NCBI GenBank assembly: GCA_946886065.1
Contig: CAMPHU010000293.1
Span: forward strand, 1 to 5,384
Origin: an uncultured Massilia sp.
GTDB taxonomy: Bacteria; Pseudomonadota; Gammaproteobacteria; Burkholderiales; Burkholderiaceae
Reading direction: 5' to 3'
DNA: 5,384 bases
Positions 1 to 5,384 of this stretch are shown here, piece by piece. The position numbers and the translations under genes were made by a program. The notes under the pieces are model-generated. The model saw only the letters and a list, made by a program, of their open reading frames with translations, was not told the DNA's origin and did not search any database. Position 1 is the stretch's first letter. Every line of letters starts with the position of its first letter.

Positions 1-152
1 GCGTAGCCCACGTGGACGATGACGAAGTCGCCCGCCTCGACTGAGCCTGGCGGCAACAGGTAAAGGCTGACTTCGCGCCGCACGCCACCCGCCTCGCAGC
101 AGGCCGCCGCTCCGTCGAGTGAGACTATCCGCATGGGAATGGCGAGGCACAT
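1..152 (-). CDS. hypC: HypC/HupF-family [NiFe]-hydrogenase maturation chaperone, 3' end cut by window edge
   Basis: The first 50 residues plus part of a codon are visible. The protein begins MCLAIPMRIV, the hallmark HypC N-terminus. Cys2, exposed after removal of Met1, is the residue that in this family binds HypD and the Fe(CN)2CO precursor. The second family signature, GDFVIVHVGYA, ends at the edge; His47 in it matches E. coli His51. HypC proteins are usually about 75-95 residues, so roughly 25-45 are missing. HypC is a small cytoplasmic chaperone that, with HypD and HypE, delivers the iron ligand cluster to the large subunit of [NiFe] hydrogenase. The start is secure: MCLAIP needs this ATG, and an in-frame TGA lies nine codons upstream. 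No strong Shine-Dalgarno is visible. The gene is the first of its transcript, divergent from a USP gene and with FNR-type boxes upstream. Further hyp genes probably follow beyond the left edge (inference). C18-C19 are extra cysteines of unknown meaning. Confidence 0.93.
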   Translation of the reverse strand, partial: MCLAIPMRIVSLDGAAACCEAGGVRREVSLYLLPPGSVEAGDFVIVHVGY

Positions 153-216
153 GGAGAATTCGTCCGCTGGCGATCAAGGGTGCCACCCATATTCCCGCCT
201 GGGCCGCATTAAATGT

Positions 217-230
217 TTGATCTCGATCAA
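217..230. promoter_or_regulatory. FNR/Anr/Dnr-type box 1, probable hypC activator site
   Basis: TTGAT-CTCG-ATCAA is a perfect match to the FNR consensus TTGAT-N4-ATCAA, and the palindrome extends one base each side to TTTGAT...ATCAAA. The centre is 223.5. On the minus strand a class II site at -41.5 would put the transcript start near 182. The hexamer GAATAT (194 to 189) then falls exactly at -12 to -7, with the two most conserved -10 bases (A at -11, T at -7). The hypC leader would be about 30 bases. The site could also act as a distal site (about -85) for the divergent USP gene. Consensus match is seen; target assignment is inferred. Confidence 0.85.
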
Positions 231-260
231 ATACTCCCGCCAAGGCCACTTAGCACTTCT

Positions 261-274
261 TTGACGCTGGTCAA
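261..274. promoter_or_regulatory. FNR/Anr/Dnr-type box 2, probable activator site of the single-domain USP gene
   Basis: TTGAC-GCTG-GTCAA is a perfect inverted repeat with one symmetric change (T to C) in each FNR half-site, extending to TTTGAC...GTCAAA. Its centre, 267.5, is 44 bases from that of box 1. A plus-strand class II promoter would start transcription near 309. At -12 to -7 is AATCCT (297-302), which keeps A at -11 and T at -7; GGTAAT at 294-299 is an alternative -10. The leader to the USP start would be about 24 bases. TTGAC half-sites are tolerated by FNR/Anr/Dnr-family regulators. Confidence 0.75.
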
Positions 275-332
275 ACACAACAGGATCAAGACTGGTAATC
301 CTGACGGCTTATGTCTTCCAGGGCCAATGATC

Positions 333-818
333 ATGTTCATAGAACGAGTTTGCGTGGCAACTGACGGCTCCGACCTTGCGGTACAGGCCGCCCAGATGGG
401 CGCCCTGCTCGCCCGCTCGGGCGCGGGACGGATGTTCGCCGTGTCGGTCGCGCAACCGCATTTCTCCATACCGGAGAGGGCGGCTGCCATGCCCGACGCG
501 GAAGCGGAGTTTCTACGCGCGCACGAGGCCGCCCAGTCGCACGTCGACACGGTCTCGCGCATCGCGCAAGCCGCCGGGGTCAGCTGCGAAACGGCGGCGC
601 CGCTCTCGTCGACGCCGGGTCCGGAGATTGTCCGGATCGCGGAAGAACAGGGCTGCGACTTGATCGTAATGGGTACCCATGGTCCTAACGACGCCAACCG
701 GCTGTTTGCCGGCAGCGTCGCCCAGTACGTGCTCGCGAACTCGACGGTTCCGGTGCTGCTGCTGCGCGTCCCGCGCGAGGCCTCCCAGCCCGAGTTCGGC
801 GGCCGGCCGGCCGGCTAG
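333..818 (+). CDS. Single-domain universal stress protein (UspA superfamily, ATP-binding type)
   Basis: This 161-residue protein is one complete USP domain. It opens with a beta strand and the nucleotide-contact segment VCVATDGS (residues 6-13) and closes with VPVLLLRVP (139-147). In between is the diagnostic ATP-binding loop GTHG-x9-GS: G114, G117, G127, S128. That is the exact G-2x-G-9x-G(S/T) pattern of MJ0577-type USPs, so ATP binding is expected. USPs are usually dimeric cytoplasmic proteins tied to survival under stress or energy limitation; the specific role here is unknown. Start: the frame stays open back to an ATG at 213, but that extension covers both FNR-type boxes and is not USP-like. 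ATG 333 has AGGG (320-323) nine bases upstream; ATG 327 is in frame but only three bases from it, and would add two residues. The protein contains no lysine. Its C-terminal tail (about 148-161) lies outside the fold. It converges on the next gene with a 13-base gap. Confidence 0.92.
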   Translation: MFIERVCVATDGSDLAVQAAQMGALLARSGAGRMFAVSVAQPHFSIPERAAAMPDAEAEFLRAHEAAQSHVDTVSRIAQAAGVSCETAAPLSSTPGPEIVRIAEEQGCDLIVMGTHGPNDANRLFAGSVAQYVLANSTVPVLLLRVPREASQPEFGGRPAG

Positions 819-831
819 GCGGGACGCCGCG

Positions 832-1668
832 TCAGCGCGTCATCAGCAGCGGCACTGTGCTGTCCTGGAGCAAGGTCCTGCTCACCCCTCCCAGGAAGAG
901 TTCGCGGAACTGCGTGTGGCCGTAGCACCCCATGACCACCAGGTCGTAGCCGTCCTGGGTCGCCAGCGTGAGCAGATTGTGCCCGCAGTCGATGTTGCGT
1001 CTGATCGTCAGTATCTGCGCGTGGACGCCGTGGCGGCCGAGGAAGGCGGTGATGCCGGCGTCATCATCGTCCTCGACCAGGCTGTTCTCGTCCGGCGGGC
1101 GGAACGACACCACGGTCACGCGGCCGGCGCGCTGCAACACCGGCAGGGCCGCGCGCAGCGCCGCGGAGGCTTCCTTGCTGCCGTTCCAGGCGACGAGGAC
1201 ATGCTCGCCAGGCTCGCGCGCCACGGGTGCGCAGGGCACGACCAGCACCGGGCGCGCGCTGGTGAACAGCACGTATTCGGGGATGCGGCCAATCGTATCG
1301 GTCAGCGCTTCGGCCAGATCGTCCTGGCTGACAACCACGAGGTCGCTAAAGCGTCCCACCCTGGCCAGTGCATCGCTGGCGAGGTCGCACACCAGGCGGC
1401 TTTCCGACGACACGCCGGTCTCGCCGGCAATCGTCGTGAACTGCTCGAGCGCGCGGGACGCCTTGTCATGCAGGGGCTGGAAATAGCTCGCCTCGAGGCT
1501 GCCGGGAGCGGCGTGGTAGCCGTGCGGGAATACGTCGCGCGACACCCCGGTGGCGGCAAGCCCGATCAGGTGTGCGCCATGCGCCCTGGCCAGCTGCGCG
1601 GCGAGCCGTATGCGTGCCGGCGCATGGCGCGACAAGTCGGCATGCACCAATATGGTCTTGTAGCTCAT
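832..1668 (-). CDS. Tandem two-domain universal stress protein
   Basis: This 278-residue protein has two USP domains, about residues 1-146 and 155-278. Domain 1 begins MSYKTILVHADLS and ends SARPVLVVP, but lacks the glycine loop; the equivalent stretch (VVSQDDLAEALTD) has none of the loop glycines. Domain 2 begins HVLVAWNGS (156-164) and keeps the loop G247-x2-G250-x9-G260, followed by Gly261 rather than Ser/Thr. GG at this point is, from memory, common in proteobacterial tandem USPs. So probably only domain 2 binds nucleotide. An acidic run (E199-D203) sits in a domain 2 loop. Lysines are only K4, K69 and K165, the last next to the NGS nucleotide segment. Start: ATG 1668 has GGGGAG eight bases upstream; an in-frame ATG at 1695 adds nine non-USP residues and has no better ribosome site. 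It is paralogous to the next minus-strand gene and has its own FNR-type box, so it can be transcribed alone or with it. Confidence 0.93.
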   Translation of the reverse strand: MSYKTILVHADLSRHAPARIRLAAQLARAHGAHLIGLAATGVSRDVFPHGYHAAPGSLEASYFQPLHDKASRALEQFTTIAGETGVSSESRLVCDLASDALARVGRFSDLVVVSQDDLAEALTDTIGRIPEYVLFTSARPVLVVPCAPVAREPGEHVLVAWNGSKEASAALRAALPVLQRAGRVTVVSFRPPDENSLVEDDDDAGITAFLGRHGVHAQILTIRRNIDCGHNLLTLATQDGYDLVVMGCYGHTQFRELFLGGVSRTLLQDSTVPLLMTR

Positions 1669-1736
1669 CGTTCCTGCTCCCCGTGTTGATGACATTCGGA
1701 ATCAGGACAGTCTCCCCGCTTCGCTCAACGGCGTGT

Positions 1737-1750
1737 TTGACCGAGATCAA
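1737..1750. promoter_or_regulatory. FNR/Anr/Dnr-type box 3, upstream of the first tandem USP gene
   Basis: TTGAC-CGAG-ATCAA has one change from the FNR consensus, extending to TTTGAC...ATCAAA. Its centre is 1743.5, in the 153-base gap between two minus-strand genes, so only the gene starting at 1668 is a sensible target. A class II start would be near 1702. GAGACT (1714 to 1709) lies at -12 to -7 and keeps A at -11 and T at -7. The leader is about 34 bases. Confidence 0.8.
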
Positions 1751-1780
1751 ATCCGCCTGCGCTCTATGAACAGACCATCA

Positions 1781-1810
1781 GTCGACTTTCGCGCCGGCGC
1801 CCAGGTCGAC
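1781..1810. repeat. Nested palindromes after the second tandem USP gene; possible weak hairpin
   Basis: Two copies of the self-complementary hexamer GTCGAC (1781-1786 and 1805-1810) flank the palindrome GCGCCGGCGC (1791-1800). On the minus strand they lie just after the stop at 1822 and could fold into one hairpin. No T-run follows, so it is not a standard intrinsic terminator. It may stabilise the 3' end of the upstream transcript or be GC-rich coincidence. Confidence 0.3.
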
Positions 1811-1821
1811 CAATACGACGG

Positions 1822-2646
1822 CTAGTGGGCCAACAGGACGGGGAACCGCATGGCCCGCAACACCGTCGCGCTGACGCCGCCGAGGATCTGTTCGCGCAGG
1901 CGCGCATGGCCATAGGCGCCGATGACGAGCAGCCCCGATCCTGCGGCGAAGGCCGCGTCGAGGAGCGCCTCGCCGGTACGGTGCCCGCCCGGCTGTTGCA
2001 CGGGTGTCGCGACGACGCCGTGCCGCCGCAGGAAGGCCACGCAGCGGTCCGCTGCGCCCCTGTCCCATCCCTCGTCGCCTTCCCCGAGGGACAGGACCGT
2101 CACCTGCCCGGCGGCGCGCAGGAAGGGCATGGCGCCGTCGATCGCGCGGCAGGCTTGCACGCTGCCGTCCCAGCCCACCAGCGTGTCCACGCCGGGCCGC
2201 GCAGTGCTCGCACCGGGAATCGCCAGGACGGGCCGTGCGCCATGCAGCAGCACATGGGCGGCCAGGTCGCCTGGCGCGGACCTTCCCGTTTCGGCCATGT
2301 CCTGTCCTAGCACGACCAGGTCGCAATAGCGTGCCCGCAGCGCCAGCGCGCAGCCGGCCTCGTCCTCGGCGAGGCTGTGCTCGAAGGACACGACGCCTTC
2401 CGCTGCGGCCAGCACCGCGAAGCGCGCCAGCGCCTCGCGTGCCTCCTGCCTCAGCCGGTCGCAGCGCGCCTGTACGGCCGGTCCGGCCTGCGCGAGCACG
2501 TCGTGCGGCAGGTAGCGCGACAGCCCGGTGGCGGCGGCGCCGATCAGGTGGGCGCCATGCAGGCGGGCCAGCTGCGCGGCGAAGCGGACCCGGACCGCCG
2601 CACCGGGCGACTGGTCGACGTGCACGAGAATCGTCCTGTACTCCAT
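1822..2646 (-). CDS. Tandem two-domain universal stress protein, paralogue of the 832-1668 gene
   Basis: This 274-residue protein has two USP domains, about 1-145 and 153-274. The N-terminus MEYRTILVHVDQS and the helix AAQLARLHGAHLIGAAATG (24-42) closely match the neighbouring tandem USP, pointing to duplication of a shared ancestor. Domain 1 has lost the glycine loop (VVLGQDMAETGRSAPGD). Domain 2 opens with TLVGWDGS (155-162) and keeps G243-x2-G246-x9-G256, followed by Gly257, so nucleotide binding is expected only there. The protein has no lysine in 274 residues, against three in its paralogue. Start: ATG 2646 has GGAG five bases upstream and gives the family N-terminus. The frame is open to 2754, but that 36-residue extension runs through FNR-type box 4 and is not USP-like. 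It lies upstream of, and may be cotranscribed with, the 832-1668 gene, and is divergent from the ligase-GNAT gene. The role is unknown beyond stress or anaerobic survival by family. Confidence 0.93.
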   Translation of the reverse strand: MEYRTILVHVDQSPGAAVRVRFAAQLARLHGAHLIGAAATGLSRYLPHDVLAQAGPAVQARCDRLRQEAREALARFAVLAAAEGVVSFEHSLAEDEAGCALALRARYCDLVVLGQDMAETGRSAPGDLAAHVLLHGARPVLAIPGASTARPGVDTLVGWDGSVQACRAIDGAMPFLRAAGQVTVLSLGEGDEGWDRGAADRCVAFLRRHGVVATPVQQPGGHRTGEALLDAAFAAGSGLLVIGAYGHARLREQILGGVSATVLRAMRFPVLLAH

Positions 2647-2740
2647 GCCGGCTCCGATGGAAGGAATGCGGACAGGGTAGCGGCACTGATGCAAGCCGTC
2701 CAGTCGCACCGCTGCCTTAACATAACTTTCTAAGCTAATT

Positions 2741-2754
2741 TTGATTGCGGTCAA
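2741..2754. promoter_or_regulatory. FNR/Anr/Dnr-type box 4 in the divergent USP / ligase-GNAT promoter region
   Basis: TTGAT-TGCG-GTCAA has one change from the FNR consensus, extending to TTTGAT...GTCAAA. It sits in an AT-rich island (about 2715-2770) within GC-rich DNA. Centre 2747.5. On the plus strand a class II start falls near 2789, and TAGGCT (2777-2782) is exactly at -12 to -7 with T, A and the final T conserved. On the minus strand the best -10, TATGTT (2724 to 2719), is about six bases too close for -41.5 geometry. The box therefore fits the ligase-GNAT gene best, but may also serve the USP gene. Confidence 0.82.
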
Positions 2755-2812
2755 ATAAATTCTTGTAATGCTTCGCTAGGCTGGCCGTATCCAGCCGTGG
2801 TCAGGAGACTTC

Positions 2813-5384
2813 ATGAGCATTCGCAACCTCGGGCACTTGTTCCACCCCCGCTCGGTGGCCGTGATCGGCGCGTCCGACCGGCCCAGCAGCGTGGGCGCGA
2901 CGGTGTGGCGGAATATCCTCGCGGGCGGATTTTGCGGGCCGCTGTGGCCGGTCAACCGGCGCCATGCCCAGGTTGCCGGCCATCCCGCCTTCGGCGCCGT
3001 GCGCGACCTGCCCGGTGTACCCGAGCTCGCCGTGATCTGCACTCCCGCGCCCACCGTGCCGGCACTGATCGGCGAGCTCGGCGCCGCCGGCTGCCGCGCC
3101 GCCGTAGTGATCAGCGCAGGCATGGATGCGGACGCAGGCGGCGGACGCAGCCTGCGCCAGGCGATGCTGGAGGCGGCGCAACCCTGGCTGTTGCGCATCC
3201 TGGGTCCGAACTGCGTCGGCCTGCTGGTGCCCGGCATCGGGCTGAACGCCAGCTTCGCGCCGGGCGCGGCCCTGCCCGGCCGGCTGGCCTTCGTGGCGCA
3301 GTCGGGCGCGCTCGTCACCGCCGTGCTCGACTGGGCCGCGGCGCGACGGATCGGCTTTTCCTGCTTCGTCTCGCTGGGCGACGGCAGCGACGTCGATTTC
3401 GGCGACCTGCTCGACTACCTCGCCGCCGACCCTGGCACCGACGCCATCCTGCTGTATGCCGAGAGCGTGCGCCAGGCCCGCAAGTTCATGAGCGCAGCCC
3501 GTAGCGCGGCGCGCGGCAAGCCGACTCTGATCGTCAAAGCCGGGCGCGGCAAGGATGCCGCCCGCGCGGCCTTCAGCCACACCGGTGCGCTGGCCGGCTC
3601 GGACCTGGTCTACGACGCCGCACTGCGCCGCGCCGGCATGCTGCGCGTGCTCACCACGGACGAGCTGTTCGACGCGGTGGCGGTGCTGGCGCGCACCCGG
3701 CCCCTGCGCGGCGAGCGCCTGGCGATTCTGACCAACGGCGGCGGGCCGGGCGTCATGGCGACCGACGCGCTGGCGGACGCGGGCGGCGTGCTGGCCCAGC
3801 TCGCGCCGGCCACGTTGGCGCGGCTCGGCGACGGCCTGCCGCCGCTGTGGTCGCACGCCAACCCGGTCGACATCGTGGGCGATGCTCCCGCCGAACGCTA
3901 CCGCCATGCCCTGGCCGTGCTGCTGGATGCGCCGGAGGCCGACGCTGTCCTGCTGATCCATGCGCCGACGGCGATCGTACCCAGCGCCGAGGTCGCCCGC
4001 ATCCTGCTGGCCCTGATGGCCGGCGCCGCCCGTCCGGTGCTGTGCTGCTGGCTGGGCGGGCCCAGCGTGGCCGAGGCCCGCCGCCTGTGCATCGAGGCCG
4101 GCGTCCCGGTCTTCGACACCCCGGAGGAAGCCGTCAAGGGTTTCCAGCAGCTGGTCGATTACCGCCGCAACCAGACCGCCCTGATGCAGGCGCCGGGCCC
4201 GTGCGAACTGGGCGCCCCCGACCGCCCTGCGGCCCGCGCCCACGTCGCCGGGCTGCTGGCCGCTGGCACGGATCCGGGCTGCGCGGGCGGCGCAGTCGGG
4301 GAGCGCGCCACCAAGACCCTGCTGACAGCCTACGGCATCCCCGTGGTGGCGACCGAGTTCGCCGCCGACCGCCCAGGCGCGCTCGCCGCCGCCGGTCGCC
4401 TCCGCTATCCGGTGGCGCTCAAGATCGTGTCGCCGGACATCGTCCACAAGTCCGATGTCGGCGGCGTGGCGCTCGACCTGGCCGGCCCAGAAGCGCTCGG
4501 CGCGGCGTTCGACGCCATGCTGGAGCGCGTGCGCGGCCGGCTTCCCCACGCGCGCGTGGACGGGTTCACGGTCCAGGCGATGGCGCGCCGCCCGCAGGCG
4601 CTGGAACTGATCGTCGGCCTCAGCACCGACCCCGTGTTCGGGCCGGTGGTGCTGTTCGGCCACGGCGGCATCGCCGTCGAGGTCACGGCCGACCAGGCAG
4701 TCGCGCTCCCTCCGCTGAACCGGGTCCTGGCCAGCGAGCTCGTCAGCCGCACCCGGGTGGCGCGCCTGCTGGCAGGCTACCGCGGGCGCCCGCCGGCGGA
4801 CCTGCAAGCCCTGTACGATGTGCTGGTCCGGGTAGGCCAGCTGGCGGCCGACCTGCCCGAACTGGCCGAGCTCGACATCAATCCCCTGCTGGCCGACGCC
4901 GGCGGCGTGATCGCGCTGGACGCCCGCATGCGGCTGCAACCGGTTCCCGCCGGATGCGATGGCCATGCACGGCTGGCGATCCTGCCTTATCCCGAGCAAC
5001 TGGAACGCCAGGTGGACAGCGCGGTGGGCAGGCTGACGGTGCGCCCCATTCGTCCGGAAGACGCCGCCGCGCATGAGGCCTTTTTCCATGCGCTCACGCC
5101 GCAGGACGTCCACATGCGCATGTTCGGCCTGATGCGCGAGCTGTCGCCGCAGCAACTGGCGCGCTTCACCCAGATTGACTATGCGCGCGAGATGGCCTTC
5201 ATCGCCACCCGTCCCGGCCCGGACGGCAAGGGCGAAACGCTGGGCGTGGTGCGCGTCGTGATCGACCCGGACGACGTGCGCGGCGAGTTCGCGGTGACGG
5301 TGCGGTCCGACCTGAAGGGGCGCGGCCTGGGGCGCCTCCTGATGGGTTGCCTCCTCGACTACTGCGCGCAGCGCGGCGTGGCCG
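2813..5384 (+). CDS. ADP-forming acyl/acetate-CoA ligase fused to GNAT acetyltransferase (Pat/PatZ architecture), 3' end cut by window edge
   Basis: The first 857 residues are visible with no stop; relatives are about 890-900. Order: CoA-binding domain (VAVIGASDRPSSVG, 15-28); succinyl-CoA-ligase-like domains (LGPNCVG 130-136, QSGAL 163-167, SHTGALAGSD 255-264, TNGGGPG 307-313); Ala/Pro-rich linker (about 455-495); ATP-grasp domain (YPVALKIVSPDIVHKSDVGG 532-551, LDINPL 687-692); GNAT domain from about 741, with acetyl-CoA loop KGRGLG 835-840. His256 matches the phosphohistidine of ADP-forming ligases, E217 its likely partner, and H545 the probable second phosphohistidine. The ligase could convert acetyl-CoA + ADP + Pi to acetate + CoA + ATP, or the reverse. 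The GNAT part may acetylate protein lysines; E825 is a candidate catalytic Glu. Enterobacterial Pat/PatZ is reported to lack the catalytic His, so this protein may differ. ATG 2813 has AGGAG five bases upstream, and an in-frame TAG at 2777 excludes earlier starts. Acyl substrate is uncertain. Confidence 0.93.
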   Translation, partial: MSIRNLGHLFHPRSVAVIGASDRPSSVGATVWRNILAGGFCGPLWPVNRRHAQVAGHPAFGAVRDLPGVPELAVICTPAPTVPALIGELGAAGCRAAVVISAGMDADAGGGRSLRQAMLEAAQPWLLRILGPNCVGLLVPGIGLNASFAPGAALPGRLAFVAQSGALVTAVLDWAAARRIGFSCFVSLGDGSDVDFGDLLDYLAADPGTDAILLYAESVRQARKFMSAARSAARGKPTLIVKAGRGKDAARAAFSHTGALAGSDLVYDAALRRAGMLRVLTTDELFDAVAVLARTRPLRGERLAILTNGGGPGVMATDALADAGGVLAQLAPATLARLGDGLPPLWSHANPVDIVGDAPAERYRHALAVLLDAPEADAVLLIHAPTAIVPSAEVARILLALMAGAARPVLCCWLGGPSVAEARRLCIEAGVPVFDTPEEAVKGFQQLVDYRRNQTALMQAPGPCELGAPDRPAARAHVAGLLAAGTDPGCAGGAVGERATKTLLTAYGIPVVATEFAADRPGALAAAGRLRYPVALKIVSPDIVHKSDVGGVALDLAGPEALGAAFDAMLERVRGRLPHARVDGFTVQAMARRPQALELIVGLSTDPVFGPVVLFGHGGIAVEVTADQAVALPPLNRVLASELVSRTRVARLLAGYRGRPPADLQALYDVLVRVGQLAADLPELAELDINPLLADAGGVIALDARMRLQPVPAGCDGHARLAILPYPEQLERQVDSAVGRLTVRPIRPEDAAAHEAFFHALTPQDVHMRMFGLMRELSPQQLARFTQIDYAREMAFIATRPGPDGKGETLGVVRVVIDPDDVRGEFAVTVRSDLKGRGLGRLLMGCLLDYCAQRGVA

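Follow-up and report, generated by a model that had tools for sequence, protein, structure and literature searches.

FNR-type palindromes at predicted class II promoters of a universal stress protein and ligase-GNAT locus in an uncultured Massilia

The 5,384-nucleotide stretch of an uncultured Massilia sp. analysed here (contig CAMPHU010000293.1 of assembly GCA_946886065.1, hereafter the window) carries four palindromes among hypC, three genes of universal stress proteins (USPs; uspA, uspB and uspC) and a gene fusing an acyl-CoA ligase to a GNAT acetyltransferase. In our reading, which we give a probability of about 0.8, an FNR/Anr-type regulator would bind these palindromes and activate predicted class II promoters of uspA, uspB, the ligase-GNAT gene and, probably, hypC. 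For the first three of these genes, FNR-type control is well supported by the conservation of the boxes, by the -41.5 geometry of the promoters, by FNR proteins with a cysteine cluster in relatives and by the Fnr-controlled USPs of Herbaspirillum. A drop in oxygen would let FNR in its iron-sulphur form occupy a site centred about 41.5 nt before the start point and draw RNA polymerase to a weak -10 element, so that these genes are turned on; uspC shares its box with the ligase in an arrangement that lacks this spacing.

The pattern TTGAYNNNNRTCAA has four exact matches in the window, at 217-230 (box 1, TTGATCTCGATCAA, a perfect palindrome), 261-274 (box 2, TTGACGCTGGTCAA), 1737-1750 (box 3) and 2741-2754 (box 4, common to uspC and the ligase), none of them assigned to a strand, and a tolerance of one mismatch adds no further match. 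In 200 dinucleotide shuffles searched with that tolerance, the mean was 0.09 matches and the maximum 2. All four boxes are intergenic, intergenic DNA making up 512 of the 5384 bases, and their half-sites comprise one TTGAT..ATCAA, one TTGAC..GTCAA and two mixed forms, so that the original prediction of four intergenic palindromes at these positions, with one consensus, one symmetric variant and two sites one base off, holds throughout. Each box thereby provides the upstream TTGAT-N4-ATCAA-like palindrome of an FNR-type class II promoter. Coordinates refer to the 14-base core TTGAY-N4-RTCAA; the outer T..A flanks of the 16-base form TTTGAY-N4-RTCAAA, one base longer on each side, are present in all four.

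As far as the E. coli account goes, the FNR consensus is TTGATnnnnATCAA, and of 23 promoters activated by FNR whose start is known, 19 carry the site at -41.5 +/-4 (PMC3688515). A box centred at -41.5 places the start of the -10 hexamer 36 nt past its own first base. The signal scored at that point was A-N3-T (an A at -11, a T at -7), a statistic picked after viewing the promoter alignment and later checked on other sites. Matching to canonical TATAAT near the boxes had yielded little, few hexamers reaching 4 of 6 positions. Among 27 chosen box-gene pairs, A-N3-T occurs at the -41.5 offset in 21 and at other offsets in at most 5, and none of 5000 shuffles reaches 21; on the sides facing a divergent USP gene, uspC included, it occurs in 0/8, the division into 27 and 8 having been made after the alignment was seen. 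With all chosen pairs pooled, the count is 21/35, which 0 of 3000 shuffles match at any offset. The peak returned at -41.5 when 50 unchosen perfect sites from three relatives (G001, G184 and G151; module sites removed, 20 of the 24 sites of G151 included) were scored in both directions, with 17/100 orientations, a value that 4 of 3000 shuffles reach at any offset; G184 contributed 7/32 and G151 7/36.

In the window this geometry fits hypC, uspA, uspB and the ligase, with start points that are predicted: the putative -10 elements, each an A-N3-T at the -41.5 offset, are GAATAT for hypC (189-194, minus strand), AATCCT for uspA (297-302, plus strand), GAGACT for uspB (1709-1714, minus strand) and TAGGCT for the ligase-GNAT gene (2777-2782, plus strand). 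Box 3 has a further A-N3-T on the side facing away from uspB, which is taken as chance. Compared with the class II promoters of E. coli, half-sites here are often TTGAC/GTCAA and the predicted -10 elements are weak (A-N2-C-T). The claim that every promoter region has its box therefore needs trimming, since the boxes are real but the one at 2741 had been counted twice, for uspC and for the ligase, and the geometry is found for hypC, uspA, uspB and the ligase only. On the uspC side of box 4, a TGGAC block lies at 2698-2702 (minus strand), at a distance of 45-46 nt from the centre of the box; it stands at the same offset in seven of the eight divergent USP promoters (the window with L004, L005, L006, L008, L010, L013 and L014) and one base further in the eighth.

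Where relatives retain a box, its spacing from the gene is kept. Of 195 genomes of the family, five have an orthologue of uspA (67-79% identity), a sixth match being 45% identical, and three of the five retain a perfect box, always a single one, centred 67.5, 63.5 and 64.5 nt from the start (65.5 nt for box 2 in the window), with different spacers. Before the ligase the distance is 65.5 nt in the window, 64.5 nt in locus L001 and 65.5 nt in L002, each of these two having a second box further upstream. From the best 80 of 554 related ligase loci, 76 were used after L022, L038, L049 and L054 were dropped: a perfect box lies within 300 bp in 9/9 loci with a divergent USP gene within 1 kb, which are related rather than independent (Massilia or Noviherbaspirillum), against 4/67 without one, the divergent USPs having been recognised solely by similarity to the three of the window. 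Among random 300-mers, 278 of 20,000 hold a perfect box. The layout at uspB is different: box 3 stands immediately before uspB in the window (centre 75.5 nt from its start), whereas in G001, G002, G184 and G151 no box is directly upstream of uspB and the box precedes a small frame ahead of it. In G151 a 156-codon frame with no Pfam match lies between box and uspB (L121:14337-14807), and the gap before uspB in G001, G002 and G184 is similar to that in G151.

The genome-wide test of sites was run on the genomes of relatives, with the palindrome pattern read backwards as control. Perfect palindromes were commoner than the reversed control in all six genomes, at 25 vs 3 (G001), 27 vs 3 (G002), 30 vs 2 (G003), 22 vs 4 (G195), 18 vs 6 (G184) and 24 vs 8 (G151). 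The 16-base form is found in 14 of 15 boxes of the USP/ligase loci (G001, G002, G184 and G151; stretches L110, L113, L114, L120, L121, L148 and L149) against 7 of 53 other perfect boxes (G001, G184 and G151), a contrast noticed after the fact, and this subclass may represent stronger sites or the preference of one FNR paralogue. FNR family proteins above the NF008365 cut-off were present in 3/3 genomes, four proteins in total, and all four have C-x2-C-x5-C near the N-terminus. G001 has two such cysteine-cluster proteins (L098 and L099), and the gene of one of them (L157) lies about 0.75 kb downstream of a perfect box with one 150-codon frame between them.

Among the part of the G001 sites that was annotated, boxes stand before or beside USP genes in several places and genes for HemN, OmpW, a protoglobin-PAS protein and MoaA; at a COX1-type oxidase subunit gene the box overlaps the opening codons of the frame as called mechanically, and others adjoin genes without an obvious link, e.g., a YkuD protein and a pseudouridine synthase. 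According to the main text on Herbaspirillum seropedicae, Fnr1 and Fnr3 together activate two USP genes, whose expression ranks with the highest once oxygen has been switched, further Fnr targets being fixNOP, ompW1 and a hemN2 operon (PMC5934665), which the G001 boxes before COX1-type, OmpW and HemN genes resemble. Regulation of the USPs here would thus be a further case of a known control, the USPs of the two organisms being likened at the level of the family. The two regulons differ in that hydrogenase has no occurrence in that main text and a ligase-GNAT target is not seen in the account as far as it goes (PMC5934665). A literature search returned no paper joining USP, NDP-forming, GNAT and FNR, nor one joining Massilia, USP, FNR and oxygen.

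Several observations weigh against FNR-type control of the locus. Two of the five uspA orthologues (G195 and G151) have no box within 250 bp even with up to one mismatch, so that the refuting condition set in the original proposal, loss of the boxes in relatives, gives a mixed outcome at uspA. At L003, where the ligase shares 76% identity, both the box and the divergent USP gene are missing. Of the 16 unchosen G001 sites, 3/32 orientations have A-N3-T at -41.5, a rate not above that of chance. Class II geometry is absent on the uspC side of box 4, the promoter split followed the sight of the alignment, the nine ligase loci are related, and the cysteine-cluster evidence comes from the genomes of relatives, so that an FNR in the genome of the window itself is an expectation. 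The bare uspA orthologues and the G001 sites would be the natural argument for boxes that are chance or decayed palindromes without function, but the 0.09 matches expected in shuffles, a spacing conserved while the spacers change and the -41.5 signal in both the chosen and the independent sets make this a most improbable explanation; shuffles, geometry and the 9/9 vs 4/67 ligase loci led us to reject a chance origin. Proteins of the Dnr/NNR type and FixK-like proteins share the site preference of FNR. Another member of the CRP/FNR family, nitric-oxide-responsive (Dnr/NNR type) or FixK-like, might therefore be the main reader of the boxes, with a direct signal other than oxygen: relatives encode CRP/FNR-like proteins with one cysteine in the first 90 residues (L101, L102 and L103), and one such protein stands beside moaA with a box between (L165). 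We consider this unlikely, given the cysteine-cluster FNR in 3/3 relatives tested and the account of USPs as direct Fnr1/Fnr3 targets in H. seropedicae, as far as its text goes (PMC5934665). Of the original claim that low oxygen or nitric oxide induces the locus, FNR-type control stands, while the two signals are not distinguishable from these sequences.

The case of hypC is weaker. The family yielded 25 HypC matches in 18 of the 195 genomes, and around none of them (loci mostly ~3.2 kb, with wider stretches for G130 and G081) was the arrangement of hypC, USP gene and box found. A perfect box occurs in 0/25 of these loci, mostly fetched as ~3.2-kb stretches, which also counts against FNR control as far as hypC is concerned, and in the 18 loci where the HypC of the window aligned there is one box with one mismatch, at the closest full-length HypC, where the -10 signal is absent. 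These two findings favour the view that box 1, 109.5 nt from uspA, serves as an upstream tandem site of uspA and that hypC lies outside the regulon. On the other side, GAATAT stands at the -41.5 offset towards hypC with no such element towards uspA, the three uspA orthologues with a box have a single one, and full expression of hypBCDE in E. coli requires FNR, as given in the part of the source at hand (PMC5350229), which together leave the tandem-site view somewhat doubtful. Assignment of box 1 to hypC is hence kept as probable. The original proposal of a single module including hydrogenase maturation is not supported, as a HypC match was found in 0/5 of the genomes with the closest uspA; the promoter geometry of hypC would be its sole ground. 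As to the co-induction of all the genes, as likewise proposed, FNR-type control is well supported for uspA, uspB and the ligase; for uspC the box is there but the geometry is missing, and for hypC the geometry fits but the box is unconserved.

The genes of the window were identified by Pfam and TIGR profile searches. hypC, for a hydrogenase maturation chaperone, is cut by the window edge (1-152, minus strand; PF01455, E 2.9e-18; TIGR00074 above cut-off). The USP genes are uspA (333-818, plus strand, start possibly at 327; a single domain with a GTHG-N9-GS motif; PF00582, E 1.9e-26), uspB (832-1668, minus strand; tandem length, 278 aa; E 3.1e-17) and uspC (1822-2646, minus strand; tandem length, 274 aa; E 1.6e-13, in two stretches), and all three proteins exceed the curated cut-off of the PF00582 Usp domain. 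USPs of the ATP-binding type have a G-2X-G-9X-G(S/T) motif; by comparison, the motif ends in GS in uspA and in GG in uspB and uspC. The gene of the ADP-forming acyl-CoA ligase with a GNAT domain (Pfam) is also cut by the edge (2813-5384, plus strand) and starts 65.5 nt from the centre of box 4, uspC lying 101.5 nt from it on the other side. Massilia sp. MS-15, Massilia phyllostachyos and Telluria antibiotica have ligases with 76-79% identity to this one, the window being closest to Massilia/Telluria. Among plasmid records, 111 have a match to the window but none reaches 80% coverage of it, and no uspA match, in the 194 records that have one, attains 60% identity.

The ligase-GNAT protein shares its architecture over ~855 residues with two protein acetyltransferase chains of known structure, 9it0 and 9isq (E 9.2e-197), and the N-terminal NDP-forming ligase and C-terminal GNAT domain of a type I GNAT (Pat/PatZ) are present by Pfam and by a full-length match to 9it0. 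Its Glu825 pairs in the alignment with residue 809 of the chain, which is the number given for the postulated catalytic Glu of PatZ (PMC8556138). The same source, in the part that bears on it, describes the ligase domain of type I Pat as without activity and that of class II, like class I, as inactive for want of a catalytic histidine (PMC8556138). Here the domain does not lack that residue: SHTGA (His256) aligns with the ADP-forming ligases 8wzu, 2csu and 4xyl, where the Pat chains 9isq and 9it0 have a deletion in place of the loop, and HKSDVGG supplies His545. Among the best 80 of 554 related loci, the SHTGA histidine is kept in 78 (2 gaps) and the HKSDVGG histidine in 78 (2 Arg). As judged from these residues, the ligase half looks catalytically complete, which is unusual beside Pat, and because both histidines are kept, unlike in the Pat chains, one protein with both ligase and acetyltransferase activities is possible. 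The USP and ligase-GNAT genes might even form a low-oxygen device in which this one protein generates ATP and acetate out of acetyl-CoA and also acetylates proteins, the co-induced USPs serving as its substrates, a speculative and rather improbable scheme that recalls the mycobacterial MsPat, which acetylates a USP (Nambi et al., as cited in PMC8556138, within the part bearing on it).

Taken at its predicted strength, FNR-type control of this locus would mean that the Fnr control of universal stress proteins, known from Herbaspirillum, also reaches a locus of USP and ligase-GNAT genes that is found in Massilia and in Noviherbaspirillum and for which start points are predicted. It would also tie low oxygen to a Pat-like fusion with a seemingly complete ligase half, and the role of Pat-like ligase domains would thereby become testable.

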